Shown here piece after piece: positions 385-37,448 of a stretch of DNA of 64,000 bases (position 1 is the first letter of the stretch; each line of letters opens with the position of its first letter). Source of the DNA: Flavobacteriales bacterium (GTDB lineage: Bacteria; Bacteroidota; Bacteroidia; Flavobacteriales_D; Crocinitomicaceae); contig CANLIL010000009.1 of assembly GCA_947491305.1 (NCBI GenBank), forward strand, positions 1-64,000, in the 5' to 3' direction. The position numbers and the translations under genes were made by a program. A model generated the notes under the pieces. That model searched no databases and was not told where the DNA came from. It saw nothing but the letters and a program-made list of their open reading frames with translations.

Positions 385-1260
385 TCAATGGTAATTTATT
401 ATTTTATAGTTTCTGCTCCATTCACTCCAAGAACCTACATAAAGTTTAGGGATTTCAAATTTTGCGTATGCAATTGCTAAAAGTGTATGACAAGCGGTTA
501 CGCCAGAGCCACAATGAACAATTATATTTTCAATTTCAACGTTTCCAAAAACTTTTTCATACTTCTGTCTAAGTAAATGAGGAGCTAAAAACAAACCATT
601 TTCGTCTAAATTCTCTGTGAAAGGAATATTTATTGCGCCAGGAATATGTCCAGCAATTAGATCAATTGGTTCAGTTTCTCCATTATAGCGTTTCTCTTCA
701 CGAACATCAATAATAAGATGTTTTTCTGAATGTGAAACTTTTTCAATTTCTGAAATTTCAGCAATTTTCAATTTCCATTTTTCAACTTTGCATAATTCTG
801 TTTGGATGATAATTTCTGTTTTTGAACTTATTGGATAATCGTACTTTTCAGCTTCCTGTAATCCACCATTTAATACTTGTACTTTTTCATGACCAAATGA
901 TTTTAGCATCCACCAAAATCTTGCTGATGCATTTGATCCATTTTTGTCATCGTAAATAATAATATGACTTTGTCTGGAAATCCCAAGATTTGATAATGTT
1001 TCCGCAAAACGTTCAATTTCTGGTAAAGGATGCCTTCCACCAATTGAAAAATCTTCTTTAATTTCAGCAAGTTGAGAATTTAAATCTATATATATCGCTC
1101 CTTCTAAATGTTTTGCTTCGTAATTAGATTTTGCATTTATTCCACTACTAGCATCAACTATAACTAAATTTTCAGATTTTGATAATTTCAGTAAATCTGA
1201 CACTTCAATAATTGGTGAAAAAATTTCATTCATTGTTCTCTGTTTGTTTTTTTTATACAA
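385..1260 (-). CDS. Sulfurtransferase, tandem rhodanese (3-mercaptopyruvate/thiosulfate sulfurtransferase-like)
   Basis: Two rhodanese-like halves, active-site loop HCGSGVTACHTLLA; start may be the internal Met at 1233. Confidence 0.88.
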   Translation of the reverse strand: MYKKNKQRTMNEIFSPIIEVSDLLKLSKSENLVIVDASSGINAKSNYEAKHLEGAIYIDLNSQLAEIKEDFSIGGRHPLPEIERFAETLSNLGISRQSHIIIYDDKNGSNASARFWWMLKSFGHEKVQVLNGGLQEAEKYDYPISSKTEIIIQTELCKVEKWKLKIAEISEIEKVSHSEKHLIIDVREEKRYNGETEPIDLIAGHIPGAINIPFTENLDENGLFLAPHLLRQKYEKVFGNVEIENIIVHCGSGVTACHTLLAIAYAKFEIPKLYVGSWSEWSRNYKIINYH

Positions 1261-1577: not shown

Positions 1578-3116
1578 TCAATGCACAATCTCCATCCAAT
1601 TTTTTGGGCGTAACAACGGTTGCCATTTGAACGTGGAAATGTATTGTTCGTCTTTGTTGATTTTATCCATTGGGTAAAAAATACCGTCTGGTTTGTCGAA
1701 GTAAGTGATGTTTTTTATTTCACCACTGTCTAAATAGATTTTCAATTCACTGGCATACAAACGGTTCATACCCAATCGCTTGATGACAAAATTGGAATCA
1801 GTACTTTTCTCGTCCCTTGGATAAAAAATTGTCCGGGCATTACCAATTACGTCTGTTCGCACTAAATCATTTGCTTGGAAAAAGGCTTCAATTTGCTTTC
1901 CTTCTATTTGATTGAAATAAGCGCCTTTGTCTAATTCCATCACAACAGATGCTTTTGTTAAAATGGAAATATGATGAATCATCGAATCTTTGATCAAAAT
2001 GGTCATTAATTCTCCTTTTAATTCTGCATTGTTCGACCAAACAATTGGTTTCTTAAACAAATTCAATTTCTCTGCTTTGGCGTCAAACGCGATGCTGTCG
2101 CAAATAGATTGAATACCGCTATTGAAAAGTTTCACTTTATGATATCCTTTTGAAAACAAAGGTTTACCAAGACTGTCATTTTGATTGAAAAGTGTGTCAG
2201 CATGAATGTACAACGTGTCTTGGCGAAGTATTTTTGTCGCCAATGTGTGTCCAACTATAATGCTGTTGTTTTTTATAGAAGAATAGCGTGCATAATCCCC
2301 TGAAAAACTCATGGCTTGCAAAGAATCTTTGAAGTAAACGTGACCGCGACCAACCGATTGACCTAAATGTGGCTGGTAAAATAAGGTATCGCCTTTGATG
2401 TGTTTGCCATTCTCAAAAATTTCACCAGCTTTTAAGAAACGTCCTTCTTTGGTTTCAACGTTATACCACCCTTTTTTACAAAACATTTTTGTAGCTCCTC
2501 TTTTGATGTTGGTTGGACCAAAAAAGTAGGTAGTTTGTTTGGCGTAAATAAATTGTAAGGTGTCTGTAGTCATCGACAAGTCTTTTTTGCGGTACACCAC
2601 ATTTTGACTAAAGAAAAAACTATTCGCTCGTGGATAGAAATAGCCAATTTTACTGGTTAATACTTCATCGTTGGTACTATTTTCAACGCGACCACCTGTT
2701 CGGTAAACTCCTTGACTCAATTTGGTGTCATAGTCCAACGAATCAGTCGTTAATTTGTATTCAACATCGCGCACCCGCACGTTTCCCCACAAACGCGCTT
2801 TACGTGTTTTTCCATTGTAATATAAGGAATCGCAAAATAAATTAATACCACCTTTGGTAATATGCACATTTCCGTAGGCGCGTACTTCTTTTGTTCTTTG
2901 AAAATAATGCGCAGAATCGCTGTACATCGTATTTCCTTGGTAAATAAAACTCACTTGTCCCACCAAACGATGGGCGCCAGTTTTTTCATTGTATCCTAAT
3001 AATTGAGAACCTTTTACTAATTCAAGAACATTCTTCTGTCCCCAAAGCGTGATGGGTGACAAAAAAAATGCGCTTAAAAAAAGCGCAATTTTGAGAGTAT
3101 TCTTGTAATTTTTCAA
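1578..3116 (-). CDS. OstA-like / LptA-like protein with signal peptide
   Basis: Signal peptide plus OstA-type repeats (GNVHITKGGINLFCDSLYYNGKTRKARLWGNVRVRD). Confidence 0.8.
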   Translation of the reverse strand: MKNYKNTLKIALFLSAFFLSPITLWGQKNVLELVKGSQLLGYNEKTGAHRLVGQVSFIYQGNTMYSDSAHYFQRTKEVRAYGNVHITKGGINLFCDSLYYNGKTRKARLWGNVRVRDVEYKLTTDSLDYDTKLSQGVYRTGGRVENSTNDEVLTSKIGYFYPRANSFFFSQNVVYRKKDLSMTTDTLQFIYAKQTTYFFGPTNIKRGATKMFCKKGWYNVETKEGRFLKAGEIFENGKHIKGDTLFYQPHLGQSVGRGHVYFKDSLQAMSFSGDYARYSSIKNNSIIVGHTLATKILRQDTLYIHADTLFNQNDSLGKPLFSKGYHKVKLFNSGIQSICDSIAFDAKAEKLNLFKKPIVWSNNAELKGELMTILIKDSMIHHISILTKASVVMELDKGAYFNQIEGKQIEAFFQANDLVRTDVIGNARTIFYPRDEKSTDSNFVIKRLGMNRLYASELKIYLDSGEIKNITYFDKPDGIFYPMDKINKDEQYISTFKWQPLLRPKNWMEIVH

Positions 3117-7760: not shown

Positions 7761-9032
7761 TTACCATTGAAATAATGGACGATTTCCCATCAATGCGTTT
7801 ACATCTTTTTTAACTGCTTGAATGATTGATTCATTCGAAATGTTTGTTAACACTTTATCCATTAAATCAACTACCGCAATAATTTCATCTTCTTTGATTC
7901 CTCTTGAGGTAATTGCGGGTGTTCCAACACGAATTCCTGAAGTAACGAACGGAGATTCTGTATCAAATGGAACCATGTTTTTGTTGACAGTTATATCTGC
8001 TAAAACTAAGGTATTTTCTGCGTCTTTTCCTGTTACTCCTTTTGAGCGTAAATCAATCAACATCGAATGATTATCCGTTCCACCAGAAATAATTTCATAG
8101 CCTTTTTTCATAAATGCGTCTGCCATAACACGTGCATTTCGTTTCACTTGTGCCATGTAATCTTTGTAATTTTGTGTTGCAGCTTCACCGAATGCAACCG
8201 CTTTTGCAGCAATAACGTGTTCTAAAGGTCCACCTTGAATTCCTGGGAAAACTGCCGCGTCCAATAATGCTGCCATTGAGCGTAAGTTTCCATTGTTCCA
8301 TTTAATGCCAAATGGATTTTCAAAATTGTGACGCATCATAATAATACCTCCACGCGGTCCACGCAATGTTTTATGTGTTGTAGATGTTACAATGTGACAA
8401 TGTTCTAAAGGATCATTTAACAAACCTGTTGCAATCAAACCAGCTGGATGAGAAATATCAGCTAATACGAGTGCGCCAATCTCATTAGCTACTTTACGAA
8501 TTCTAGCATAATCCCAATCACGGCTGTAAGCAGAAGCACCACAAATAATCATTTTAGGTTTCTCTTTGTGTGCAACTTCTTCCATTACATCATAATCTAC
8601 ACGTCCAGTTTCTTTGTTAACACCATAGAAAAATGGTTGGTATAATTTTCCTGAAAAATTAACTGGCGATCCATGTGTTAAGTGTCCGCCATGAGATAAA
8701 TCAAAACCTAAGATTTTGTCTCCAGGATTCAAACACGCTAAAAATACAGCAGCATTTGCTTGCGCTCCAGAATGTGGTTGAACATTAGCCCAAGTTGCAC
8801 CAAATAAGGTACACAAACGATCGATTGCTAATTGCTCCACTTTGTCTACAACTTCACAGCCACCATAGTAACGTTTACCAGGTAATCCTTCAGCGTATTT
8901 ATTTGTTAATACACTTCCCATTGCGTTCATGACTTCGTCACTGACAAAATTTTCAGAAGCAATTAATTCAACGCCATGCAATTGTCGTTGTTTTTCTTCT
9001 TCAATTAGGCGAAATATTTCTTGATCTCTCAT
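7761..9032 (-). CDS. glyA: Serine hydroxymethyltransferase
   Basis: [39 protein letters not shown]. Confidence 0.97.
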
Positions 9033-20247: not shown

Positions 20248-22136
20248 TGAACTGCCGTTTTATTATGAATCAAGTCGCGATTGTAACGTTGAATAATTGC
20301 TTTTATGCGTTTTTCAACGCGTTTCGTTTCTTTTTTGTAGAACGAAAGTGAATCGGTTGTTGACATTTTTTTAATCGTGAAATCATTCATGTTTCGTACC
20401 TTGTCATTGGTCACAGTATAAAGATGGTTTTTTGTGAAATAGAAATACGAACCTTCTAAATAAGTAAATGCTTCTCGTTCAGTATTTTTGTAAATCGATT
20501 GACCGTATGCATAGTATTTTGTGTCAATATTTAATAGGTCTAAAATTGTTGGCATAATGTCCAATTGTTGAATGATTTTAGACTCTTTTTTAACTGGAAG
20601 TAATTTCTTTGGATGGTAAAAAACGATCGGAATTTGATACTTGAAACGTCGGTCATTGTACAATTGATTAGCTGTTGCAGGCGTGTGGTCAGCTACTAAT
20701 ACAAACAAAGTATTATCATACCATGCTTGTTTTTTAGCCGTTTCAAAAAACTTTTTCAAAGAAATGTCACCATAACTTATCGAAGCACAAATGGGTTGAT
20801 TTCCTTTGATTACTTTATTTCTCCATTTTGCTGGAACATAATAGGGGTGATGCGAAGATAACGTAAACAAGGTTCCAATAAATGGTTGTTTTAAATTCGA
20901 AAGTTGTTGTGCGGTCCATGGATTAAAATATTCGTCTAAAATTCCCCAAGTTTTATCAAAATGCTGGTCGTTGTTGTATTCAAATCGCCCAAAATAATGA
21001 TTGAATCCTAACTGCGCAGCAAAACCATTGAAACGCATTGAACCATTTGTAGCACCGTGATAAAAGCCTGAATCGTATCCTTTTTTCTTTAAAATCGTCA
21101 CCAAAGAATTTACGTTATTGTTTCCATAAGGCGAAGAAATGTAGGGATTATCCATTAAACTTGGAATAGAAGCAATGATGGAAGGAACAGCCTCAATTGA
21201 TTTTTTACCGTTTGCAATACCATATTCAAATGAAAGCGATTGTTTAATTAAAGAATCAAAAAATGGTGTGTAGGATTTCCCATCGTTAAATGCGCCCACA
21301 AATTCATTTCCAAAACTTTCCAAAATGATAATCATTACATTGGTTCCGTCAGGTAAAATATGCTGTGGTTGTGAAACTTGAATAGGGTTGAATAATCGGT
21401 CGTTTTCTTGCTCTGAAAAATAGTTCTTTACTTCTAAGCGCTCTTTACCGTAAGATTTTAACATGGTTAGAGGCGTATTTAAAATGAACGCAGAATTTTC
21501 GGGTTTAGAAAATTGAGCTGCTTCAACAATCCCCATTGGTCGCAACTGAATTCCACCACGAGAAAGAACAATAAACAAAGGTAAAATAACTATAAAACGA
21601 ATAGACAAAGCTAATGCCATTGGTTTTAAAGGTGTAAATACACTTTTTGTTTTACGATAAAGCCATTCATTGATTAGAATTATTACAACAAAGCACAAAA
21701 TAATCAACCAAAAGTCTTTGATAAATGTTAAAGCCAATTGTTGAATATCGCTTCCAGTTCCTAAAATAGTGAGTAAATCAAATGTAGAGCGTTTGCTCGT
21801 GTATTTAAAATATTCGATGTCCATTAAATTCAATGCAATCATTAAACTACTCACGAGATGAAAATAAATCTTCAAAATTAGTTCTTTGATATTTACCCAT
21901 TTTTCAGGTGATGGAAGTAACGAAATCAGGATGAAAGGCGCAAAATAAATCGTTATAGTCATACCGTCAAACCATAAACCAATGCAGTAATCAAAAAATG
22001 AAATGGAATTAAAACTTGCGCTATTAAAGCTATAAAACAACAGGCGAGAGAGTGTCATCATCATTAAAATGATGCTCAGTCTTTGAAATAGCGGTTTAAT
22101 TCCGCTCAGTACGCCGATGATTTTATTCATAATCAA
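20244..22136 (-). CDS. LTA synthase family membrane phosphoglycerol transferase/sulfatase-like protein
   Basis: N-terminal TM helices; NVMIIILESFGNEFVG, GKKSIEAVPSIIASIP, LVADHTPA. Confidence 0.88.
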   Translation of the reverse strand: MIMNKIIGVLSGIKPLFQRLSIILMMMTLSRLLFYSFNSASFNSISFFDYCIGLWFDGMTITIYFAPFILISLLPSPEKWVNIKELILKIYFHLVSSLMIALNLMDIEYFKYTSKRSTFDLLTILGTGSDIQQLALTFIKDFWLIILCFVVIILINEWLYRKTKSVFTPLKPMALALSIRFIVILPLFIVLSRGGIQLRPMGIVEAAQFSKPENSAFILNTPLTMLKSYGKERLEVKNYFSEQENDRLFNPIQVSQPQHILPDGTNVMIIILESFGNEFVGAFNDGKSYTPFFDSLIKQSLSFEYGIANGKKSIEAVPSIIASIPSLMDNPYISSPYGNNNVNSLVTILKKKGYDSGFYHGATNGSMRFNGFAAQLGFNHYFGRFEYNNDQHFDKTWGILDEYFNPWTAQQLSNLKQPFIGTLFTLSSHHPYYVPAKWRNKVIKGNQPICASISYGDISLKKFFETAKKQAWYDNTLFVLVADHTPATANQLYNDRRFKYQIPIVFYHPKKLLPVKKESKIIQQLDIMPTILDLLNIDTKYYAYGQSIYKNTEREAFTYLEGSYFYFTKNHLYTVTNDKVRNMNDFTIKKMSTTDSLSFYKKETKRVEKRIKAIIQRYNRDLIHNKTAVQ

Positions 22137-22205
22137 GTCAAAATTAGGAATATTCTCTTTAAGTTTTCTATTATTGCAAGAACAACTTGTTAAAAAAGAT
22201 CAATT

Positions 22206-23066
22206 ATGCTTCAAAAACTAATTATTATTCTTGTTTTACTTTCAAATTTTGTCGTTTTCAGTCAAAATGATGGCGCTTTTGTAATTTTCAATTCAAAAGG
22301 TAAAAAAGTTTCATTGGAAAAAATGTTATCCGATATTTCTCAAAAAGAAGCTGTTTTCTTTGGTGAGCAACACGATAATCCAATTGCACATTGGATTGAA
22401 TTACAAGTATTGAAACGAATGGAAGCAACCTACCACGCTGATTTAGTTGTTGGGTTTGAAATGTATGAACACGATCAACAAGAATTATTGACGCAATTTT
22501 TAGCGAAACAACTTTCAGAAAAACAATTTAAAGACACGGTTCGACAATGGAATAATTATGCAACGGATTACAAACCTTTGTTGCTATTTATGCAAGAGAA
22601 ACAATTGAAGGGCATTGCAACAAATGTACCACGAAGGTTTGCGAATTTACTTTTCAAGAAAGGGTATAAAGCGTTGGATACCTTAAGTTTAATAGATAAA
22701 AGTAACATGGTTCCTTTGCCTTTTACGATTGATTCAACCCTGACACAATATGCAGCGTTGAAAGAAATGGAAGAACATATGGGAGGAAAACAAATGATGG
22801 CAGCGCAGGCATTAAAAGATGCAACAATGGCGCATTTTCTTTTAGAAAGTATTAATAAAGGAAAGAAAATCCTTCATTTTAATGGTGCTTACCATACAGA
22901 TTTTTACCAAGGAATTTTATGGTATGTTCAACAAGTGGCGCCTATGATTCAAACTATAACAATTTCAACGATTACCCAGCAATCGATTAAAAAATTAGAA
23001 AAGGAACATCGTAATAAAGCAACGTATATCATCTGTGTTGCTGAAGATATGACGAGAACGTATTAA
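22206..23066 (+). CDS. ChaN family protein
   Basis: AVFFGEQHDNPIAHWIELQVLKRM, GFEMYEHDQQ, HFNGAYHTDF. Confidence 0.85.
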   Translation: MLQKLIIILVLLSNFVVFSQNDGAFVIFNSKGKKVSLEKMLSDISQKEAVFFGEQHDNPIAHWIELQVLKRMEATYHADLVVGFEMYEHDQQELLTQFLAKQLSEKQFKDTVRQWNNYATDYKPLLLFMQEKQLKGIATNVPRRFANLLFKKGYKALDTLSLIDKSNMVPLPFTIDSTLTQYAALKEMEEHMGGKQMMAAQALKDATMAHFLLESINKGKKILHFNGAYHTDFYQGILWYVQQVAPMIQTITISTITQQSIKKLEKEHRNKATYIICVAEDMTRTY

Positions 23067-23082
23067 ACCGAATTGTTAATCA

Positions 23083-23120
23083 CAAAAAAAAGCTGGATTG
23101 TTACAATCCAGCTTTTTTTT
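23083..23120. terminator. Bidirectional Rho-independent terminator
   Basis: AAAAAAAGCTGGATTG-TTA-CAATCCAGCTTTTTTTT between convergent genes. Confidence 0.88.
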
Positions 23121-23130
23121 GTTCATTATT

Positions 23131-26004
23131 TTACTTGATTTTATCTGCTCGCTCTTTTGCATCTTGCATAATTGCATCTGCTTTTTTATTTGCTTCAGCA
23201 TTGAGTTTGTTGATTTTATCGTCGGTAATTTTTGTGATTTTGTTCCCAGCGATTTCAGCTGCTTTTTTCTGGAATATATTTGAACCAGCATTGCTAACTA
23301 AATTATCTACTTCTTTTTTAGCTTGTGCTTTTAACTCGTCAGCTTGTTTTCTTGCTTCTGCTTTAATTTTGTCCGCTTGTCGTTGAGCGTCTGCCATGAT
23401 TTCAGCTTTTTTGGCATTTAAATCTTCTCGAACCTCAGTTATTTTTTGGTTGATAATTGCTTTAGCAGTATCTTTAATTGCTTGCTTCGCATTTGCAAGA
23501 TTATCCTTTAAATTTCCGGTTGCGGCTAACAAAGCTTCTTTGAAATCGGTGTTGATTTTTGGATTGGTAACTGTCCCAATCATGTTTACTTTTACAGGAA
23601 TAATAGCTGGAATAGCTGCAATGTTCAACTTTGGCAGCATTGAATTTACTTTAGCCAACGCTTTTTCAGCAGTTTTAATCATTTCAGCTGGAATTTCTTC
23701 TTTAGGAACCAATAATTTAATGTCATAATTAATTGATTGATCTAAACTAGTATATCCAGCGATGTTTGCGTTCATTTTCCCTAATTTCACATCAAAAGGT
23801 GCAACGCTAAGTTTTCCGTCTGATAACTTAAATTTCAAGTAAACATCTTTCAGTGTTTGTTTTGCGTATGATTCCTTTTTCAAAGCAGCAGCTAATTCTT
23901 CTAATGGTTTAAATCCTGAAACGGTCAACGATTTTGTTGAGAAATCTCCATTGGCATTTAAAGATGGATAAATAGGGTCAAGGTTAGCTGTTAACGAAGA
24001 TTTCATTGTGAATGTTGAACTAATTTTCCCTTGCGCATATTTTGTAATAGGTGCAATTTTTTCAATTGTAACAAAGTTTGTTGCTAATTCAGTTACATCA
24101 ATTTCTTTTAAGTTGTATGCGAAATTAACAGCTGGTTTGTAATGATCAACCGTTGAGAAATCTCCTGAAAGTCCAACTAAACCACCCATCGTATTCATTG
24201 TTAAATTTGAAAGTGTTGCCACTTCATCTTTTATTTTTACGCCACCAGTTACATTCTTGATAGCCATTTTGTTGTAATAAACAGTAGCGATAGTTGTTGT
24301 TAAATTGAAATCAATGTTATCTGGAATCAACATTGGTTCACTGTTTGTAGTAGTTTGAGGTTTTTCTTCTTTTTTAAGATCATTTGAAGTACTTGGAACA
24401 AGATTCATCAATTGGTCTAAATCTAAGGTGTTACTTGTGAAGGTGAAAACTCCTTTTAACAATTCATTTCGAAAAACGTAACCCATGTAATTGTCGATTG
24501 TTCCATTCATTTGGAAATCTGAGCGACCTGTTTTCGCAATTAATTTCTCTAAGCTTAAGTTTTTTGGTGTGAACCTAAAGATTAGGTTGGCAATTTCAAC
24601 GTGATCATTTAATTCTTTTGATTTATAAAGCATGTTCCACAATTCAAGTGTTCCGGAAGCTTTGAACGCTTCGTAATTTCCTTTGTCGATTGCGCTTAAA
24701 CGACCATTTAAATTGACATCAGCTTTTAATTTTCCTTTGTAAGATTCTCCATCTCCCATTGGAATAACTTGTTTCAAAGTCGCTAAGTCAACATTTGCTA
24801 ACACTTTTGCAACTAGCAACGGATCTGTCATTGGGTTGCGCATTTTTAAAGTTGCGTCCAAGGTATTTCCTGCAAAATCTGCGTGGAATTTATTAACATC
24901 AACTGTCATTTCATCCATGTTTGCACCGCCTTTAAAAGTTGAAGCCGCTTTTACAACAATGTTTTTAATCGTACCAGGTAAATCTGGGTACTTGATGGAT
25001 GCATTGGCTACGTTTAATTTGAAATCCCATGCTGGCATGTTTTTATCGTCCATTTTACCTTTTAAGAAACCACCAAAATCCAAAGAACCTTTTGTAATCA
25101 TGGATTCATAACCAGTTTGATAGAACGTTGGAATTAACGATAAGAAATCTTTGAATGTTGCTTGTGAAGCATTTATTTTAAAATCCATGTTGGAAGATTT
25201 TTCTAACATTTCATAAAAACCATCCAATGAGAAAGTCAAGGCATTTAATTTGAATTCATTTTCTTTTAAGGTGAATTTTGAACTATTTTCGCTGAATTCC
25301 ATCAGAAGATTTACGATGAAATTTGTTTTAACTTCCGATAAATAAGCAACGCCATCCATGTTAAACGTCATTTTATCCATTGAAGTAGTCGTTTCAAAGT
25401 CAATGATATCTGCTGTTAAATCTCCTTTTCCATGATGGTTTAAGTTTTGAATATCTAACAACATATCGGATGTTTGGTCGTCGTATTTTACGCTTCCGTT
25501 CGTGATGGAATATTCTTTCAACGAAAGTTTGAAATTGGAAGGTTCTTCTACTTGTTCAACTGGTTTAACTGAATCTGGTTTCACAATGTCGTAATTTGCT
25601 TTTCCATTTTTCAAGATGCGCACATCAAATTTTGGTTCAACTAAATTGATTGCGTTGATTTCAATTTGATCACCACCAACAACATTCCAAAAACCTACTT
25701 CTGCACTGAATTGTTTGATGTTTGCCAATTCAACACCTTTAAATTCATTGATTCCTTCCAGTTTTGTATCGTTTAATTCAATTGTCATAGAAGGAAACGT
25801 ACTAATAAACGTTAGGTCAAAATCACCCATCGATAATTTAGCATTCAACGATTTGTTAACCTCGTCAATAACCATTTTTTTAAGATCGTCTTTAAAGAAA
25901 TAAGGAATTGCAATTAAGATCGCTAGTAGAACTGCAAATCCAATTCCAGTCCATTTTAATATTCTTTTAACCAGACTTTTTTTCTTTTTTTCAATTGAAT
26001 TCAT
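23131..26004 (-). CDS. AsmA family outer-membrane-biogenesis-like protein with long C-terminal charged helix
   Basis: MNSIEKKKKSLVKRILKWTGIGFAVLLAILIAIPYF anchor; AsmA-like repeats; start moved from 26226 to 26004 to avoid overlap with the divergent gene. Confidence 0.82.
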   Translation of the reverse strand: MNSIEKKKKSLVKRILKWTGIGFAVLLAILIAIPYFFKDDLKKMVIDEVNKSLNAKLSMGDFDLTFISTFPSMTIELNDTKLEGINEFKGVELANIKQFSAEVGFWNVVGGDQIEINAINLVEPKFDVRILKNGKANYDIVKPDSVKPVEQVEEPSNFKLSLKEYSITNGSVKYDDQTSDMLLDIQNLNHHGKGDLTADIIDFETTTSMDKMTFNMDGVAYLSEVKTNFIVNLLMEFSENSSKFTLKENEFKLNALTFSLDGFYEMLEKSSNMDFKINASQATFKDFLSLIPTFYQTGYESMITKGSLDFGGFLKGKMDDKNMPAWDFKLNVANASIKYPDLPGTIKNIVVKAASTFKGGANMDEMTVDVNKFHADFAGNTLDATLKMRNPMTDPLLVAKVLANVDLATLKQVIPMGDGESYKGKLKADVNLNGRLSAIDKGNYEAFKASGTLELWNMLYKSKELNDHVEIANLIFRFTPKNLSLEKLIAKTGRSDFQMNGTIDNYMGYVFRNELLKGVFTFTSNTLDLDQLMNLVPSTSNDLKKEEKPQTTTNSEPMLIPDNIDFNLTTTIATVYYNKMAIKNVTGGVKIKDEVATLSNLTMNTMGGLVGLSGDFSTVDHYKPAVNFAYNLKEIDVTELATNFVTIEKIAPITKYAQGKISSTFTMKSSLTANLDPIYPSLNANGDFSTKSLTVSGFKPLEELAAALKKESYAKQTLKDVYLKFKLSDGKLSVAPFDVKLGKMNANIAGYTSLDQSINYDIKLLVPKEEIPAEMIKTAEKALAKVNSMLPKLNIAAIPAIIPVKVNMIGTVTNPKINTDFKEALLAATGNLKDNLANAKQAIKDTAKAIINQKITEVREDLNAKKAEIMADAQRQADKIKAEARKQADELKAQAKKEVDNLVSNAGSNIFQKKAAEIAGNKITKITDDKINKLNAEANKKADAIMQDAKERADKIK

Positions 26005-26068
26005 AGGAAACGTTGTTAAATTGACGATATTTGTTTGTTTATTATTAGGAATGTAAAAATAACGAAAA

Positions 26069-26830
26069 ATGAAGAAATTTATTCTTATTACTGTACTTTT
26101 ATTTTTTGTTGATGTGGTCGTTGCCCAGGTTTTGATTGGCGCACCAGAAGTAAAAAGTAAAAATAAATCACAAAATAAGCAGAAAGCAACTGAATTAAAA
26201 TTGAATGCAATAGCTGAAACTGGCACGCGTGTTTATGTACTTTCTAATTGGTCAAATTCTTCTAGAACATTGACTGAAAACACTGGTTTATATGGAGATC
26301 CACTTGGTGAAAGAGCTAACGAAACAGCTGCGCAAGTTTGGTCGTTTGGACTGGGTATTCAAAATGATTTAACCAAACACTTTTTTTGGGACGCAGGAAT
26401 TTCCTATGTTAAAAATGGGGAAAATTATTCTTTTCAATTGGGCGATTCAAGTTTTATGTATCAAACACGTTATCAGTATATTGCAATGCCACTTCGCTTA
26501 AATTACCAGATTCAAAAAAACAGGTTTCATTTCTATATTGGAATTGGTTTAATGCCTCAAATGTATTTGACATCTAAACGAACTGTTGATTGGACAAAAG
26601 GCAATCAATCGAATGCATTTGAAGAAGTTATTTCTGAGAAAACAGCACCAGTAGTATTGAGTGGACTTCTGAATTTGGGAGTATTGGTTGATTTGAAAAA
26701 GGGATTTTCATTAGTTATTTCACCAGAAATGCGCGTTCAATTCAATTCTTCTTACGATCAATACCAATCCTATGTTCATAAAAATCAATCGATGGGCATT
26801 TCGTTTGGGTTAACAAAAAAAATACAATGA
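26069..26830 (+). CDS. Outer membrane beta-barrel (porin family) protein
   Basis: Signal peptide; alternating beta-strand pattern. Confidence 0.7.
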   Translation: MKKFILITVLLFFVDVVVAQVLIGAPEVKSKNKSQNKQKATELKLNAIAETGTRVYVLSNWSNSSRTLTENTGLYGDPLGERANETAAQVWSFGLGIQNDLTKHFFWDAGISYVKNGENYSFQLGDSSFMYQTRYQYIAMPLRLNYQIQKNRFHFYIGIGLMPQMYLTSKRTVDWTKGNQSNAFEEVISEKTAPVVLSGLLNLGVLVDLKKGFSLVISPEMRVQFNSSYDQYQSYVHKNQSMGISFGLTKKIQ

Positions 26831-27921
26831 AACTAGTTGAAATAACAGCTTATTTAGAAGCGTTAGTTCCTTTGTCGTGGCAGGAATCCTACGATAATTG
26901 CGGATTACTTGTTGGGGATAAAAATACAGAGGTAACAGCAGCATTAATCTGTTTAGATTGCACTGAAGAAATCGTTGATGAAGCCATTGCGAAAGGATGT
27001 AATTTAATTATTGCACATCATCCAATTATTTTTTCAGGCTTAAAAAAAATAACAGGTGCCGATTACGTTCAACGAACAATAATTAAAGCAATTCAACATT
27101 CAATTGCAATTTACGCCATTCATACAAACCTTGATCATTATCAGAAAGGGGTGAATTTTGAAATTGGAAATCGGTTAGGATTGAACAATTTAAAAATTTT
27201 AGCTCCCAAAAAAGAACAACTTTTTAAAGTGGTAACATTCGTACCGAAAGAAAATTATTCGCATCTGAACAAAGCACTTTTTGATGCAGGAGCTGGTGAG
27301 TTAGGGAATTATTCCGCATGTCACTTTCGTTCTGAAGGAATTGGATCTTTTGAACCAAATGCAGCTGCTCAACCTGTAATTGGAACACCAGGTGTTTATG
27401 AAGAAGTGGAGGAAATGCGTGTTGAGTATTTGGTTCAAAGTCACAGAGTAGGAAATGTGATTCAGACTTTGTTGGCGACACATCCATACGAAGAAGTAGC
27501 ATACGATTTAATTCCGATAGCAAATACTGATCCAACAATTGGAGCTGGAATGATTGGAGAATTAACTCAACCAATGGAAGAAAAGGATTTTTTAAATTTT
27601 GTAAAAAATACGTTTCAAACTGGCTGTATTCGTCACACCAATTTTTTGAATAAACCAATCAAACGTGTTGCATTTTGTGGTGGAGCTGGTGGATTCTTAT
27701 TAAATGAAGCTAAAAAACAGCAAGCAGATATTTTTATAACGGCTGATTACAAATACCATGAATTTTTTGACGCTGAAAATCAGATAGTTATAGCTGATAT
27801 TGGGCATTTTGAGAGTGAACAATTCACAACAAATTTAATTGCTGATATTTTGAAGAAAAAATTCACTACCTTTGCCGTTCATTTAACGGGAATTAATACG
27901 AATCCAATAAATTATTTTTAG
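26827..27921 (+). CDS. Nif3-like dinuclear metal center hexameric protein
   Basis: SWQESYDNCGLLVGD, IIAHHPIIFSGLKKI, GAGMIGEL, FITADYKYHEF. Confidence 0.93.
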   Translation: MKLVEITAYLEALVPLSWQESYDNCGLLVGDKNTEVTAALICLDCTEEIVDEAIAKGCNLIIAHHPIIFSGLKKITGADYVQRTIIKAIQHSIAIYAIHTNLDHYQKGVNFEIGNRLGLNNLKILAPKKEQLFKVVTFVPKENYSHLNKALFDAGAGELGNYSACHFRSEGIGSFEPNAAAQPVIGTPGVYEEVEEMRVEYLVQSHRVGNVIQTLLATHPYEEVAYDLIPIANTDPTIGAGMIGELTQPMEEKDFLNFVKNTFQTGCIRHTNFLNKPIKRVAFCGGAGGFLLNEAKKQQADIFITADYKYHEFFDAENQIVIADIGHFESEQFTTNLIADILKKKFTTFAVHLTGINTNPINYF

Positions 27922-27924
27922 CAC

Positions 27925-28671
27925 ATGGCAGGAACTGCGACTAAAAAAGAAGTATCAGTGGCGGAAAAGTTAGACGCCTTATTTGAATTGCAAAAGATTG
28001 ATTCAGAGATTGATAGAATAAGAACAATCCGAGGTGAACTACCTTTGGAAGTGCAAGATTTAGAAGACGAATTAGAGGGCTTAGAAACACGTATTGCTAA
28101 AATTCAAGAAGAGATTAAAGATCTTGATACTGAAATTTTAGATCGTAAAAATGCTACAAAAGATTCTGAAACGGCAATTGCTAAGTATAAAGAACAACAA
28201 AATAATGTTAGAAATAACAGAGAATTTGAATCATTAGCAAAAGAAATTGAGTTCCAAGAATTGGAAATTAAATTGCATGAGAAAAAATCGAAAGAAGCGA
28301 AATTTAAATTAACTTCTAAAAAAGAAACATTAGACGAAGCGAAAGAGCGTTTCGAATTCCGTAAAGAGGATTTGAAAACGAAAAAAGCTGAATTGGATGA
28401 AATCGTTAGTGAAACTCAAAAAGAAGAAGATGATTTAATTAAAAAATCTGCTACTGCTTTAGGTAAAATTGATGCACGTTTGGCTTTTGCTTACAACCGT
28501 TTAAGAGTAAATGCAAAAAATGGTTTGGCTTTAGTACCTGTTGATCGTGATTCTTGTGGAGGTTGTTTTAATAAAATTCCACCGCAACGTCAATTGGATA
28601 TCCAATCGAAAAAGAAAGTTTTGGTTTGTGAACACTGTGGACGTATTTTAGTTCCAACTGAAGAAGCATAA
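27925..28671 (+). CDS. Coiled-coil protein with C4-type zinc ribbon
   Basis: Long coiled coil then CGGCFNKIPPQRQLDIQSKKKVLVCEHCGRILV. Confidence 0.92.
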   Translation: MAGTATKKEVSVAEKLDALFELQKIDSEIDRIRTIRGELPLEVQDLEDELEGLETRIAKIQEEIKDLDTEILDRKNATKDSETAIAKYKEQQNNVRNNREFESLAKEIEFQELEIKLHEKKSKEAKFKLTSKKETLDEAKERFEFRKEDLKTKKAELDEIVSETQKEEDDLIKKSATALGKIDARLAFAYNRLRVNAKNGLALVPVDRDSCGGCFNKIPPQRQLDIQSKKKVLVCEHCGRILVPTEEA

Positions 28672-28707
28672 TTCAACAACGGAATTCGTTCCGTAAAAGA
28701 GATATTT

Positions 28708-28736
28708 TAGGGCGGATTTTTCCGCCCTATTTTTTT
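28708..28736 (+). terminator. Rho-independent terminator
   Basis: AGGGCGGA-TTTT-TCCGCCCT then T run. Confidence 0.85.
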
Positions 28737-28749
28737 ATACAAGGAAAAG

Positions 28750-29973
28750 ATGAAATTTAGCGATTATCCAATTTCAAATTTAGTCAAAGAACAATTGAAT
28801 GAAATGGGTTTCAAAAAACCAACCGACATTCAATTTAAAGCTATTAAACACATTCTTGAAGGAGAAGATGTTATGGCCGTTGCGCAAACAGGTACTGGTA
28901 AAACTGCTGCTTTTGCAATTCCTGTAATTGATAAATTGGAAAAAAGAAATCGTAAAGGTTACAAAGGTGTTCGTTGCCTTGTTATGGTTCCAACACGCGA
29001 ATTGGCCAAACAAATTTCGGGTGTATTCAATGAAATTGGTCGCCGAACAAGTGTAAAAACATTTGGTTTGTACGGTGGTGTTGAACAAGAACAACAAATT
29101 CGAACGTTGAATAATGGATTAGATGTTGTGGTTACAACTCCTGGTCGAATGTTCGACTTAATTTCCCAAGGATTTTTAGACATTTCTCGCCTGGAATTTT
29201 TAGTATTGGACGAAGCAGATTTGATGCTTGATTTGGGTTTCATGAAAGACATTGAAGATGTTTTAAAACACATTCCAAGTAAACGTCAAACCTTGTTTTT
29301 TACGGCAACGATTTCTAAAAAAATCAAGAATTTAGCTTATTCGGTCGTTAAAAACGCAATTCGTATTCAAATTTCACCCAAAAATCCGGTTGCAAAAAAT
29401 ATTGATCATGCTGTTGCATTTGTTGATATGGACGATAAGCGCTTTTTCCTAGAAAATATTTTGAAAGAATACGAAGAAAAGCAATTCATCGTTTTTGCAC
29501 GAACAAAAGTTCGCGTTGAGCGAATCGTAGCTGCGATGGAACGTGTTCAAGTTAAAACAGAAGCTTTGCATGGTGGAATTGAACAAAAAGACCGTTTTGC
29601 AATTTTGGATCGTTTTCGTTCTGGCGAAAACAAAGTCTTAATTACAACCGATGTTGCAGCGCGTGGTATCGATATTCCAACGATGGATTATGTAATTAAT
29701 TACGATTTACCTGACGATGCTGAAAATTATGTTCACCGTTGCGGAAGAACTGGTCGCGGAAACCGAAGAGGTCAAGCGCTTTCGTTTTGCAGTGATGCTG
29801 AAAAAGTGTTATTAGAAGCCATCGAAGAATATACTGGTGAAGAAATTGAACATTACGACATCACCAAAGATGAGTACATGGATATTTTGAACGACAGTGA
29901 AGAAGGCGGCTACAATTGGAAGAAATTAATCGACCAAACGAATAAAGAAGACGGAACAGTAGACGAATGGTAA
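28750..29973 (+). CDS. DEAD/DEAH box RNA helicase
   Basis: AQTGTGKTAAFAIP, VLDEADLML, TATISKK, HRCGRTGRG. Confidence 0.95.
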   Translation: MKFSDYPISNLVKEQLNEMGFKKPTDIQFKAIKHILEGEDVMAVAQTGTGKTAAFAIPVIDKLEKRNRKGYKGVRCLVMVPTRELAKQISGVFNEIGRRTSVKTFGLYGGVEQEQQIRTLNNGLDVVVTTPGRMFDLISQGFLDISRLEFLVLDEADLMLDLGFMKDIEDVLKHIPSKRQTLFFTATISKKIKNLAYSVVKNAIRIQISPKNPVAKNIDHAVAFVDMDDKRFFLENILKEYEEKQFIVFARTKVRVERIVAAMERVQVKTEALHGGIEQKDRFAILDRFRSGENKVLITTDVAARGIDIPTMDYVINYDLPDDAENYVHRCGRTGRGNRRGQALSFCSDAEKVLLEAIEEYTGEEIEHYDITKDEYMDILNDSEEGGYNWKKLIDQTNKEDGTVDEW

Positions 29974-29975
29974 GC

Positions 29976-30911
29976 TTATAAAGGCATTAGTTTCAAACCA
30001 TTCAATTCTTTTCTTGGAATCACTGTTGCAATTTGACGTAAAATATCTTCTTGTAAAATTTCTAATAATTTTTTCTTGACAAAATGCCTATGTACAACGA
30101 TTCCAACACTTCTAAACGGAATTGGTTCCGAAAACTCACTGACATGTTTTTTTTCTGTTTCATTGAAATCTAACGTTGAAAGATAAGGTAAAAGGGTAGA
30201 AGCATTATTCGCTTTCACAAATCTAAGTAAACTGTCAATCGAACCAGCTTTGTATTCAAAATTTAATTTACTTGAATACGGTTTTTTATGAATATCACAT
30301 AATTTTATGACTTGTGTGCGCATGCAGTGACCTTCTTCTAGTAAACATAGATTTTCCATATTTACAGCATCTACAGAAACAAGGTCATTACTTTCTTTGT
30401 TGGTGTCATAATAAATAAATGCTTCATCATAGAGTTTAATCTCAATCAAATCCTTATCCAAAATAGGAATGGATACAATTCCCATGTCTAATTCTCGTGC
30501 TTTTATGGCGCGAATTATTTCTGCTGTTGTTTGTTCTTTTACAGTAATCGATAAATCTGGAAATTTTGACGCAAATTTTTGAAGAAATAATGGCAACAAA
30601 AATGGTGCAATGGTTGGAATCACAGAGAGGGTCAGATTTCCTTTTATTTCTCCTTTTATTTCTTTCGTAAATTCTTTGAGTTGGTCGATGTTGTTTTGAA
30701 TAATTTTTAATTGTTCAATGATTAATAAGCCTTCAGTCGTTATTTCAACTGGTTTTTTCTTACGATCAAAAATCAAAATACCTATTTCATCTTCAAATTT
30801 TGAAATCATCGTGCTCAAAGTCGATTGTGTGATACAACATTTTTCAGCAGCTAATTCAAAGTGACGGTTTTCAGCAACAGCTAATATGTATTGAAATTGG
30901 TGTATATTCAT
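29976..30911 (-). CDS. oxyR: LysR family hydrogen peroxide-inducible activator
   Basis: N-terminal LysR HTH (QFQYILAVAENRHFELAAEKCCITQSTLSTMI), LLEEGHCMRTQVIKLC. Confidence 0.9.
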   Translation of the reverse strand: MNIHQFQYILAVAENRHFELAAEKCCITQSTLSTMISKFEDEIGILIFDRKKKPVEITTEGLLIIEQLKIIQNNIDQLKEFTKEIKGEIKGNLTLSVIPTIAPFLLPLFLQKFASKFPDLSITVKEQTTAEIIRAIKARELDMGIVSIPILDKDLIEIKLYDEAFIYYDTNKESNDLVSVDAVNMENLCLLEEGHCMRTQVIKLCDIHKKPYSSKLNFEYKAGSIDSLLRFVKANNASTLLPYLSTLDFNETEKKHVSEFSEPIPFRSVGIVVHRHFVKKKLLEILQEDILRQIATVIPRKELNGLKLMPL

Positions 30912-30965
30912 CTATGTTATCAATATTGATATATGTAATATCGTTTTCATAAAACAAAGCTATGC
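30907..30965. promoter_or_regulatory. Copy A of a 59-nt repeat overlapping the oxyR start; candidate OxyR operator
   Basis: 50/59 nt identical, ungapped, to 32284-32342; contains TATCAATATTGATA dyad (LTTR-like ATC-N6-GAT). Confidence 0.65.
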
Positions 30966-31091
30966 ATTAATTTCTTATGTTTTTTATATCCTAAATTATT
31001 AATGTTGTAAAAAAATCAACCGTGTTAAAAAAGTTAAAAATTAGTAATAGTATTGAATTAATTTTTATTTTTGTCATCAAATCCAAATAAT

Positions 31092-32192
31092 ATGAACATG
31101 AAACCTTTAAACAAATTCACATTAATTTTAGTTGCTATTGCAATTAATTTTAATTTATCAGCTCAAATCGATCAACTAATTGGCGGCGTTGAGAATAAAC
31201 TGATTAAAATCAATCAAAACACCGGATCATATGTAAATTATATGACCATCAACAACTTTCCTCCAGGAAAATTCATCAATAAATTATCTTGGTGTGCAGA
31301 AAACAATTGTTTTTACACGCTTGCGACTCAGTCAGGAACAATAGATAATAAAGTGTCAATAATTAATGCCAACGGAAATTATGTTTTGAAAGGAACTGTT
31401 ACAATTGCTGGAGGAACAGTTTATCACATTGAAAACATTTTTTATGATGCACTTTCAAATAGTATTTATGCTGCTGCAAGTTTAAATGGAACAATGAATA
31501 CGTCTGATTATGAATCTGAAAGTTTAATTAAAATTGATACTGCTACAATGCAAGCAACCTTGGTAGGTGTGGCTATGCATTCAGGAACTTCAAAAGAAGC
31601 TGAATTTGATAACATAACGATTGGAATTGATGGCTATCTCTATTACACAGAAACTCAAGGTGGTTTTAATTCATTCAACACTATTTATAAACAAGATTTA
31701 ACCTTCACTAATCCACCTATATTACTGTATTCAGAATTAATTAATACAAGCGTTGGTGATATTACGATAAGAAACAATGATCTTTACTTTGTTGCAAATA
31801 GACAGTTAAGAAAAATTAATCTGTCAAATTACATTCACTCAACTGTGGGAACAATTTTTACTTCTATTGATTTTAATGGAAGTCAAATGTATGGTTTGGA
31901 TTGGAAAAACAGTTATGTAGCAAATACGGAAGAATTAGCTAATTCAGAAACGCTTGACATTATTGCCTTTCCAAATCCTACTGCTGAAACATTAAATTTT
32001 GATAGTAACAATCAACTTATTGAAAAAATCGAAATTTATGATTTAAATGGGAGATTATTACTTCAAAAAGAATTAAATAAAATCAATCCATCAATCGAAA
32101 TTTTAGAATTAAAAAATGGATACTATTTCGTTAAGTCGTATTTATCAAATGGTAAAATTTCTGATAACAGCGTTGAGATTTTGAGAAATTAA
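31092..32192 (+). CDS. T9SS type A sorting domain-containing secreted protein, propeller-like
   Basis: Signal peptide (KFTLILVAIAINFNLSAQ) and C-terminal T9SS tail FPNPTAETLNFDSNN...IYDLNGRLLLQKEL...NGYYFVKSY; start moved from TTG 31071 to ATG 31092. Confidence 0.83.
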   Translation: MNMKPLNKFTLILVAIAINFNLSAQIDQLIGGVENKLIKINQNTGSYVNYMTINNFPPGKFINKLSWCAENNCFYTLATQSGTIDNKVSIINANGNYVLKGTVTIAGGTVYHIENIFYDALSNSIYAAASLNGTMNTSDYESESLIKIDTATMQATLVGVAMHSGTSKEAEFDNITIGIDGYLYYTETQGGFNSFNTIYKQDLTFTNPPILLYSELINTSVGDITIRNNDLYFVANRQLRKINLSNYIHSTVGTIFTSIDFNGSQMYGLDWKNSYVANTEELANSETLDIIAFPNPTAETLNFDSNNQLIEKIEIYDLNGRLLLQKELNKINPSIEILELKNGYYFVKSYLSNGKISDNSVEILRN

Positions 32193-32217
32193 TGCGATTT
32201 GAATTTTTAATTAGTTT

Positions 32218-32251
32218 AAACGGAAATTCAATTGAATTTCCGTTTTTTTTT
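32218..32251 (+). terminator. Rho-independent terminator
   Basis: Perfect palindrome AAACGGAAATTCAATTGAATTTCCGTTT followed by T run. Confidence 0.88.
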
Positions 32252-32283
32252 AACTTATTTTTCAATAGTTTTTTGATAATTGC

Positions 32284-32342
32284 TTCATCTGTTTTATCAA
32301 TAGTGATATTCAAAATATCGTTTTTATAAAACAAAACTATGC
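32284..32342. promoter_or_regulatory. Copy B of the 59-nt repeat upstream of katG; candidate OxyR operator
   Basis: 50/59 identical to 30907-30965; ends 2 nt before a TATTTTTG -7 box. Confidence 0.7.
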
Positions 32343-32344
32343 GC

Positions 32345-32352
32345 TATTTTTG
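32345..32352 (+). promoter_or_regulatory. Candidate katG -7 box TATTTTTG
   Basis: TAnnTTTG match 28 nt upstream of the likely katG start. Confidence 0.5.
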
Positions 32353-32353
32353 A

Positions 32354-34657
<2,304 letters not shown>

Positions 34658-34674
34658 TTGATTGAATAGAATAG

Positions 34675-34702
34675 AAAAGCCGATTGAAAGATCGGCTTTT
34701 TT
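34675..34702. terminator. Bidirectional Rho-independent terminator
   Basis: AAAAGCCGAT-TGAAAG-ATCGGCTTTT between convergent genes. Confidence 0.85.
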
Positions 34703-35213
34703 AGTTTATCATTTTTTTCATAATGTAATCTGTCTGTAAATCAGTTCCCAATTTAAAGATATGTTGATCAATGATTTCGAATCCATTCTTTTGGTAAAAA
34801 TGAATGGCGCGTTCGTTTTTTTCCCAGACTCCCAGCCAAATGAAATCAACTTGTTTTTTATGGGCAAGTTCTTCTGCTTGAGCATAAAGCAGTTGTCCAA
34901 CTTTTTTACCGTGGTAGGATTTCAAAACATAAATTCGTTCAATTTCTAAACTGTTTGCAGCATTGAATTCCGTTTGTGCAGCGCCGATATTCACTTTTAA
35001 ATAGCTAATTACTTTATCATTCTCTGAAACAATGTAAAACTCAGAATTGGGTTCCAATAATTCTTCTGTTAATTTTTCGGTAGAAAATCCATTTTCCAAA
35101 TAAGAAAGCATGTTTTCTGCTGTATTGAATGGTGAAAAGGTTTCTTCAAAAGTCGTTCTTCCAATTTGTTGGATGCGTTCAAGATATTGTATGTTGACTT
35201 TTTGAAGGAGCAT
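34701..35213 (-). CDS. GNAT family N-acetyltransferase
   Basis: LEIERIYVLKSYHGKKVGQLLYAQAEELA, AIHFYQKNGFEII. Confidence 0.9.
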   Translation of the reverse strand: MLLQKVNIQYLERIQQIGRTTFEETFSPFNTAENMLSYLENGFSTEKLTEELLEPNSEFYIVSENDKVISYLKVNIGAAQTEFNAANSLEIERIYVLKSYHGKKVGQLLYAQAEELAHKKQVDFIWLGVWEKNERAIHFYQKNGFEIIDQHIFKLGTDLQTDYIMKKMIN

Positions 35214-35244
35214 TTAGTTTGATTGAAATAAACTAGGAAGAGTA

Positions 35245-36255
35245 TCACAAAATATTCACTTCGCGCTCTAGCGTAACACCAAATTTTTCTTTTACAGACG
35301 CAATGATTTGTGTCGATAAATCGTAAATCTGTTGTCCGGTTGAACCACCGTAATTCACTAATACCAGCGCTTGTAATTTGTGAACGCCGCACGTATCGAT
35401 TGTTTTTCCTTTCCAACCTGTTTGTTCGATCAACCAACCAGCGGCTAATTTTCGTTTACCTTTATCAGCAGGGTAGTTGGGCGCATCTGGGAATTTTTGT
35501 AAAATTATAGCTACAATTTCTTGGTCAACAACTGGATTCTTGAAAAAGCTACCTGCATTTCCTAAAACAGCTGGGTCTGGAAGTTTTGAACGTCGAATGG
35601 CAATTACTGCATCGCTAATGTCTTTGATACTTGGAGTTGAAATACCCATTTCAGTTAACTGAGTTTCAATGGCTCCGTAATTTTTATGAATTGTAGCTGT
35701 TTTAGAAAGTTGAAATGAAACGGAAACAATCACGTATTGTCCTTTTAATTTGCGTTTAAATACACTTTCGCGGTAGCCAAATTCGCATTGTTCTTTATCA
35801 AAGGTGTGAATAGCACCAGTTTCAATATGGTAGGCTTCTAAAGAGTGAAAGACGTCTTTAATTTCAACGCCGTATGCACCAATGTTTTGCATTGGACTTG
35901 CTCCAACACTTCCTGGGATTAAACTCATGTTTTCAACACCAGCAAATCCTAGTTCAATGCATTTCAATACAAACTCATGCCAAATTTCTCCGGCTCCAAC
36001 TTGAACAATTACAGTTTGATCATTTTCAGAAATTACTTCAAATCCTTTGATTTCATTTTTCAAAACTAAACCATCGAAGTTTTTGGTTAACAAGATGTTA
36101 CTACCTCCTCCTACAATTAATAGTTCAAGTCCTGTTGTATTGTTTTTTAGACAAGTTTCTAATGAAGTAACAGATGAAAAACGATCAAACGCTGTTGCTT
36201 GAACATCAATTCCAAATGTATTATAAGGCTGGAGGCTGCAGTTTTTCTCTAACAT
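35245..36255 (-). CDS. murB: UDP-N-acetylmuramate dehydrogenase
   Basis: LQPYNTFGIDVQA, IVGGGSNILLTKNF, IPGSVGASPMQNIGAYG, GSFFKNPVV; start set at MLEKNCSLQ. Confidence 0.95.
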   Translation of the reverse strand: MLEKNCSLQPYNTFGIDVQATAFDRFSSVTSLETCLKNNTTGLELLIVGGGSNILLTKNFDGLVLKNEIKGFEVISENDQTVIVQVGAGEIWHEFVLKCIELGFAGVENMSLIPGSVGASPMQNIGAYGVEIKDVFHSLEAYHIETGAIHTFDKEQCEFGYRESVFKRKLKGQYVIVSVSFQLSKTATIHKNYGAIETQLTEMGISTPSIKDISDAVIAIRRSKLPDPAVLGNAGSFFKNPVVDQEIVAIILQKFPDAPNYPADKGKRKLAAGWLIEQTGWKGKTIDTCGVHKLQALVLVNYGGSTGQQIYDLSTQIIASVKEKFGVTLEREVNIL

Positions 36256-36256
36256 G

Positions 36257-36739
36257 TTAAACGTCTTTGTGGTTAGGTGGTAATGTTGTTGGAACTTTTG
36301 TGACGCGATCATGCAACACAATGCTACCTGTTACACCAACATTCAACGAAGTATTTCCTGGAAGTTTGATTAAAAAATGACATTTATCTATTACTTCTTG
36401 CGGTAAACCATCGTTTTCAGAACCTAATAAATAAATAGCACGTTTTGGGTGTTCAAATTCATGCAAAAATGTTGCAGTATCATCTAGTTCAACTCCCACC
36501 AAACGACAATCGTAAGGAATGTTTGCCAATAAATCGTCAAAGGATTTGTAGTGAAACAATGGGATTCTAGACCAAGTTCGTAAGACATCAGAACTTTGTT
36601 TTTTGTAGCGATTATCAACAGTAAAAATATAACTAGCGCCCAAAATATATGCAGAACGCCAAAGTGTGCCTAAGTTGTGTTCTGTTTTTCCTCTGAAAAC
36701 GCCTATCGCGCAATATCCTTCCTTGTTTGTTGTCTTCAC
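36257..36739 (-). CDS. TrmH/SpoU family RNA methyltransferase
   Basis: HNLGTLWRSAYILGAS, YLLGSENDGLPQEVIDKC, LPGNTSLNVGVTGSIVLHDR; GTG 36739 chosen as a plausible start, longer track start 36826 overlaps the divergent CDS. Confidence 0.82.
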   Translation of the reverse strand: MKTTNKEGYCAIGVFRGKTEHNLGTLWRSAYILGASYIFTVDNRYKKQSSDVLRTWSRIPLFHYKSFDDLLANIPYDCRLVGVELDDTATFLHEFEHPKRAIYLLGSENDGLPQEVIDKCHFLIKLPGNTSLNVGVTGSIVLHDRVTKVPTTLPPNHKDV

Positions 36740-36806
36740 AATACAAAGGTGCGAAAAATCTTTATTTCTTATAACATTTTCCTCATCTTTGTAAAAATCT
36801 TTCGAA

Positions 36807-37448
36807 ATGGAATTTATAGCTGACAATTTAGATCAATACGTTTGTGCGCATTCAGAAAATGAGCCAGAAATTTTAGCAGATTTAAACCGTAGAACGCATG
36901 TTTCTGTCATTCAACCACGCATGTTGAGTGGACATTACCAAGGACGCGTATTGAGTATGTTATCGCACATGATTCAACCTGAAAAAGTATTGGAAATTGG
37001 AACCTACACTGGTTATTCTGCTTTGTGTTTAGCGGAAGGATTGAAAGAAAAGGGTCACTTGACCACAATCGATGTAAATGAAGAGTTAGAAGACTTTGTC
37101 GCGGCATACATTGAGAAAGCGGGTATGGGGGATCGAATCACACAATTGATTGGTGATGCAATAGATATTATACCAACGTTGGATGAACAATTTGACATCG
37201 TTTTTATCGATGCAGACAAAAAAAACTATTGCAATTACTACGATTTGATTTTTGACAAAGTGAAATCGGGCGGTTACATCATCGCAGATAATGTATTGTG
37301 GTCAGGAAAAGTATTGGAAGATTACGATTCGTTAGATCGAGAAACCAAAATCCTCATGGATTACAACCGAAAAATTCACGAGGATGAGCGCGTACATGAA
37401 GTGTTGCTTCCGATTCGTGATGGAATTATGATTGCACGAAAAAATTAG
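36807..37448 (+). CDS. O-methyltransferase (class I SAM-dependent, CCoAOMT-like)
   Basis: VLEIGTYTGYSALCLAEGL, DIVFIDADKKNY, GGYIIADNVLWSGKV. Confidence 0.93.
   Translation: MEFIADNLDQYVCAHSENEPEILADLNRRTHVSVIQPRMLSGHYQGRVLSMLSHMIQPEKVLEIGTYTGYSALCLAEGLKEKGHLTTIDVNEELEDFVAAYIEKAGMGDRITQLIGDAIDIIPTLDEQFDIVFIDADKKNYCNYYDLIFDKVKSGGYIIADNVLWSGKVLEDYDSLDRETKILMDYNRKIHEDERVHEVLLPIRDGIMIARKN

Follow-up and report, generated by a model that had tools for sequence, protein, structure and literature searches.

In the window, i.e. the 64,000-nucleotide stretch of Flavobacteriales DNA (Bacteroidota, Crocinitomicaceae) analysed here, a 1310-bp insertion accompanied by a 67-bp duplication of its target lies between the gene of an OxyR-type regulator and katG. 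Our reading, to which we assign a probability of about 0.8, is that the two genes once shared a single regulatory block, that a foreign gene was inserted there and that the 67-bp duplication provided each of the old genes with its own copy. The locus, in which the inserted gene is termed X, comprises the following features.

29976-30911, minus strand: oxyR-type LysR regulator, 311 aa, GHC-N8-C redox cysteine pair (HTH_1 and LysR_substrate domains, PDB relatives, identity to L006 and L007)
30907-30973: 67-bp repeat of the regulatory region next to oxyR, termed copy A (55/67 positions shared with copy B; counterpart in L006 at 7939-8005)
30974-32283: 1310-bp insertion missing from all relatives
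31066-31073, plus strand: putative own -7 box of X, TATTTTTG (TAnnTTTG match 18 nt upstream of the ATG at 31092)
31092-32192, plus strand: gene X of the insert, encoding a secreted protein of 366 aa with a T9SS type A sorting domain (PF18962, TIGR04183)
32218-32252, plus strand: intrinsic terminator of X, 12-bp stem and T-tract (fold -14.2 kcal/mol, z -4.8)
32262-32288, minus strand: vestigial oxyR start, mini-ORF MKQLSKNY* (by translation)
32284-32350: second 67-bp repeat, next to katG, termed copy B (55/67 positions shared with copy A; alignment to relatives)
32363-34657, plus strand: katG, encoding a catalase-peroxidase with a signal-peptide-like N-terminus; start probably at 32381 (TIGR00198)

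Genes of the locus

The regulator contains both LysR-type domains, PF00126 (HTH_1) and PF03466 (LysR_substrate), and the closest solved structures in the PDB are OxyR. Its redox cysteine pair, equivalent to C199/C208, is located in GHCMRTQVIKLC, which aligns with GHDFRDQVLEAC of OxyR 4x6g; the latter carries D at the first cysteine position. The best NCBIfam family was the OxyR equivalog NF008361 with 181.7 bits, below the cut-off of 329, and the protein is hence named OxyR-type and not considered an equivalog member. Sequence identities on the amino acid level were 93% to the homolog in L006 and 89% to that in L007. This oxyR was detected in only three of the 26 genomes of the genus (E <= 1e-60), and the patchy occurrence of the oxyR-katG pair (29976-34657) suggests its transfer or loss as a module. 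KatG affiliates with TIGR00198 (1178 bits, cut-off 770). Its N-terminus (32381-32440) is a signal-peptide-like stretch, which suggests that the catalase-peroxidase is exported.

Protein X ends in a T9SS type A sorting domain (PF18962, 5e-10; TIGR04183, 40.6 bits with a cut-off of 23). Over its full length, the N-terminal domain is 34-42% identical to proteins with different tails from a few other genera of the family. In the loci of these homologs (~3.7 kb each), the visible neighbours are neither oxyR nor katG, so that an association of the X family with these genes elsewhere was not observed in the loci read. The DNA of the insert occurs once in the genus, which rules out a paralogue or second copy of the insert within the genus as donor. 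Searches with X in the 25 remaining genomes matched its sorting tail only, and a full-length X was absent. A plasmid origin of X found no match in the plasmid collection.

Extent and occurrence of the repeat

Copies A and B form an ungapped direct repeat of 67 nt. The original prediction had reported a pair of 59-nt segments (30907-30965 and 32284-32342) with 50/59 identical positions, a result that was reproduced exactly; these segments lie within the duplication, whose full length had been missed, as had the position of its right end in the katG -7 box. Likewise as described, copy A covers the oxyR start codon (CAT at 30909-30911), the equivalent CAT in copy B (32286-32288) opens a frame of 8 codons followed by a stop, and the 59-nt form of copy B ends 2 nt short of a putative katG -7 box, TATTTTTG. 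The dyad noted in the conserved core is present, its formula requiring correction to TATCAATA(T/G)TGATA with a single differing position.

A dispersal of the 59-nt element over many unrelated loci, named beforehand as an observation that would contradict the proposed history, was not found. A core pattern of 36 positions with <=3 mismatches had two matches in the 2.53-Mb genome, copies A and B, and its reversed control had 0; within the window, the next-best ungapped match of the 59-mer reached 36/59. These genome-wide pattern searches rule out a multi-copy element and, together with the synteny described below, chance or plain operator resemblance.

OxyR sites in a single genome resemble each other, and two independent operators might be alike through shared binding specificity without any duplication. 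This explanation is scarcely credible here: the identity spans features beyond an operator (start codon, spacer and both -7 boxes), the genome holds no third site of this kind, and copies A and B each align contiguously to one identical place in relatives, a synteny that refutes independent look-alike operators. A misassembly induced by the repeat is unlikely, since the copies share no exact match longer than 11 nt.

Comparison with relatives

The two nearest relatives of the window are G051 (L005 and L006) and G106 (L007 and L004). L006 and L007 have oxyR directly beside katG in divergent orientation, with the element present once, and the same adjacent, divergent arrangement with a single element was found in ~20 more distant Bacteroidota loci containing both genes; this statement covers every relative that has oxyR and katG within the stretch examined. 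A T9SS gene between the two genes was present in none of G051, G106 and the ~20 further loci. Adjacent genes with a shared control region are thus the arrangement of the relatives and not of the window, where the pair is split by 1310 bp and has two control regions. This synteny in relatives without the T9SS gene supports the predicted history of ancestral divergent neighbours with one shared regulatory element.

The second part of that prediction, an insertion of the T9SS gene with duplication of the target region, is supported by BLAST alignment with the nearest relative. Positions 21985-30973 of the window align with 16929-7939 of L006, and 32284-35212 with 8005-5072. On L006 these two matches share 67 bp, and between them the window carries 1310 bases without counterpart. 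Alignment to G106 gave identical numbers (query gap 1310, subject gap -67). The insert consists of the T9SS-tail gene with its own terminator. Because of these two alignments, the adjacency of the genes in the distant loci and the absence of X from the remainder of the genus, the insertion with target duplication is placed in the lineage of the window. In a literature search, an oxyR/katG pair split by a gene with a duplicated control region was not found described.

The reverse course, an ancestral three-gene arrangement from which X was removed in the relatives when the two repeats recombined, is very improbable. Recombination between 67-bp repeats would indeed restore a clean single copy, but all distant oxyR-katG loci are adjacent with one element, and the absence of full-length X from the other 25 genomes of the genus would require many independent losses.

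Further observations concern the region 3' of katG. Positions ~34800-37300 are 90-97% identical to L007 and 80-90% to L006, a reversal of the order of similarity in most of the flanks that identifies a recombination mosaic. At 35212-35247 and 36765-36777, both relatives carry 706 and ~860 extra bases; two segments shortly after katG have therefore probably been lost in the lineage of the window.

Ancestral control block and putative promoters

In an alignment of 23 relatives starting at the oxyR start codon, the ancestral region is a rigid block without gaps, conserved phylum-wide. The block ends at a TAnnTTTG box that starts at column 57 and is exact there in 19 of the 23 relatives. A second TA-nn-TTTG pattern is located on the opposite strand in columns 51-44; as in the first, the two middle columns are variable. 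TAnnTTTG is the -7 consensus of sigma-A in Flavobacterium psychrophilum (PMC9723704), and both fixed-column patterns match this flavobacterial consensus.

30955-30962, minus strand: putative oxyR -7 box TAGCTTTG (TAnnTTTG), copy A, intact (columns 51-44, conserved in 23 relatives)
30968-30975, plus strand: remnant of the katG-direction -7 box, TAATTTCT, copy A, last positions supplied by the insert (relatives TAATTTTG; homology ends at 30973)
32332-32339, minus strand: orphan oxyR-type -7 box TAGTTTTG, copy B, consensus positions intact (from the sequence)
32345-32352, plus strand: putative katG -7 box TATTTTTG, copy B (57-nt distance to the oxyR start-codon column; exact TAnnTTTG at this distance in 19/23 relatives)

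A distance of 57 nt separates the oxyR start codon from the putative katG -7 box; the putative -7 box of oxyR is found on the other strand, at a spacing of 5 nt. As these boxes point in opposite directions at such a distance, the predicted divergent promoters overlap and probably exclude each other. Operator-like dyads occupy the interval from the oxyR start codon to the -7 box of this gene, a position which fits, following the precedent of LysR-type regulators, autorepression of oxyR and activation of katG from the ancestral block; we infer this mode of control by analogy. The fixed 57-nt spacing and the overlapping -7 boxes provide a testable operator and promoter map for OxyR-type control in Bacteroidota.

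The ancestor would accordingly have possessed divergent oxyR and katG genes with one compact regulatory block of ~70 bp, in which an OxyR-type operator covered the start codon and 5' leader of oxyR and reached the -33 region of katG, and two divergent promoters overlapped with their -7 boxes 5 nt apart. Divergent pairs of LysR-type regulators and their targets, such as OxyR with katG, ahpC or oxyS, share the divergent orientation, the single operator block and the overlapping promoters. In contrast to these systems, the pair in the window is split by a foreign gene and has its own copy of the block on each side.

Fate of the two copies

The insertion of the 1310-bp foreign segment duplicated 67 bp of target around it, from a left end in the oxyR start codon region to a right end in the katG -7 box. 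In copy A, the junction with the insert falls inside the katG -7 box, which reads TAATTT/CT (the slash marks the junction) versus TAATTTTG in relatives; copy B keeps TATTTTTG. The point of insertion hence leaves the oxyR side to copy A and the katG side to copy B. Each gene would retain an operator and its own -7 box, the formerly overlapping promoters would become separate, and the strong terminator of X would insulate it from katG. In addition, insert sequence now stands where the -33 region of oxyR is presumed to have been.

By parsimony with L006 and L007, six changes were assigned to copy A, six to copy B, one to L006 and none to L007; both copies thus changed faster after the duplication than the single-copy element (Fisher p = 0.003). 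In copy A, the changes occupy columns 5, 22-25 and 37, leaving the start region and the -7 box of oxyR intact. The four adjacent bases altered in columns 22-25 include two that are invariant among the relatives. In copy B, the sole change at an invariant column adjoins the vestigial start, and the four changes on the right-hand side miss the consensus positions of both -7 boxes (p ~0.03 in a post hoc test). The two copies seem to lose complementary parts, and the pattern of changes, small in number, fits a complementary decay of A and B. Since invariant bases changed in both copies, a full operator function of either is not certain. Autoregulation by OxyR from copy A, activation of katG from copy B and loss of the katG-direction promoter in copy A are what these sequences would predict. 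The split of a shared bidirectional control region represents a natural experiment, in which insertion with duplication lets both genes survive.

A second insertion with a long duplication

The original prediction overlooked a second gene insertion with a long duplication in the same window, ~30 kb away. The duplication is therefore not specific to oxyR/katG.

257-310: copy 1 (orphan) of the 52-54 bp of duplicated target, corresponding to the 3' end of an OstA-like gene (repeat alignment)
311-1577: ~1.27-kb insertion with a rhodanese-family gene (385-1260, minus strand; query gap 1269, subject gap -52 in comparison with G051; PF00581)
1578-1631: functional copy 2, C-terminal codons of the OstA-like ORF (1578-3116, minus strand; repeat alignment)

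Compared to G051, positions 311-1579 are extra (1269 bp), with a subject overlap of 52 bp. The 54-nt repeats are 91% identical. Five private changes are found in the orphan copy and none in the functional copy, i.e. the orphan alone decayed. The copies have in common one derived base that neither relative carries, which suggests that this duplication arose within the lineage of the window. The rhodanese gene aligns with G029 over its coding region only (82% DNA identity). The rhodanese and X inserts as well as their sites are unrelated in sequence.

An alternative source of the extra copy is a donor strain, from which it would have arrived together with the insert by homologous recombination of a circle or fragment with oxyR-katG homology. 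The mosaic between species in the flanking region documents that recombination occurs here. We nevertheless regard the donor route as unlikely, because X was not seen adjoining oxyR or katG anywhere else and the shared derived base at the rhodanese site indicates a copy made inside the lineage.

Less likely still is an origin of the repeats as attL and attR sites of an integrase-type element, complete or in remnant form; such elements frequently duplicate the end of a gene. Direct repeats of 52-67 bp at the 3' end (rhodanese case) or start (oxyR) of a gene do resemble att sites, and integrase islands similarly preserve the target gene by direct repeats. In our case, however, each insert holds a single gene and neither encodes a recombinase, so that no integrase island is recognised; the two inserts and sites are unrelated, one site extends across a promoter and start codon, and the insert is absent elsewhere in the genus.

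Mechanism and generality

Transposase, recombinase or inverted ends were detected in neither the X nor the rhodanese insert. Direct copies of the target flank the insert as in transposon target-site duplications. Usual transposon target duplications are far shorter than the 52-67 bp found here, and with its one T9SS-tail gene and without matching terminal inverted repeats the X insert does not qualify as a transposon. Non-transposon insertions of single genes flanked by direct repeats have been described in Arabidopsis by comparison of close relatives, with a recombination circle as the proposed model (PMC2869330). Those insertions concern a plant nuclear genome; here, the host is a bacterium and the repeat is target sequence.

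A search of the 26 genomes of the genus for Ku gave no match. Ku-type end joining is thus disfavoured, and a joining step would be Ku-independent. A staggered break with an offset of 50-70 nt, filled in around a captured foreign fragment, or template switching could have produced the duplications; we infer this route tentatively, at somewhat less than even odds. The second case is suggestive of gene capture accompanied by long duplications in a genus where Ku was not detected. That the lineage has a recurrent, undescribed mode of single-gene capture, copying 50-70 bp of target to both sides with neighbours and controls intact, and converting at oxyR/katG a mutually exclusive promoter block into two independently evolving ones, is doubtful.

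Over the ~555 kb of the alignment between G000 and G051, six simple insertions of 300 bp or more were counted in G000; two of them have a long duplication, and both are located in the window. Among 13 insertions in G051, there was no convincing single-gene case, and one 332-bp event had a 74-bp overlap. The remaining insertions lack a long duplication or involve internal or dispersed repeats. A general rule of target duplication by insertions is unsupported by these counts, and the occurrence of two such insertions in one 64-kb window may be a coincidence. At L110:17199-17841, a GIY-YIG-like frame adjoins tRNA-Met and is accompanied by incomplete copies of the tRNA end and of the terminator; this third candidate (C5, ~17.4-17.8 kb) involves dispersed repeats and was not counted. 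At the OstA-like/RelA-SpoT junction that received the rhodanese gene, G106 contains a different segment of 799 bp (L125:576-1374) without the junction repeat, and the junction is possibly an insertion hotspot.
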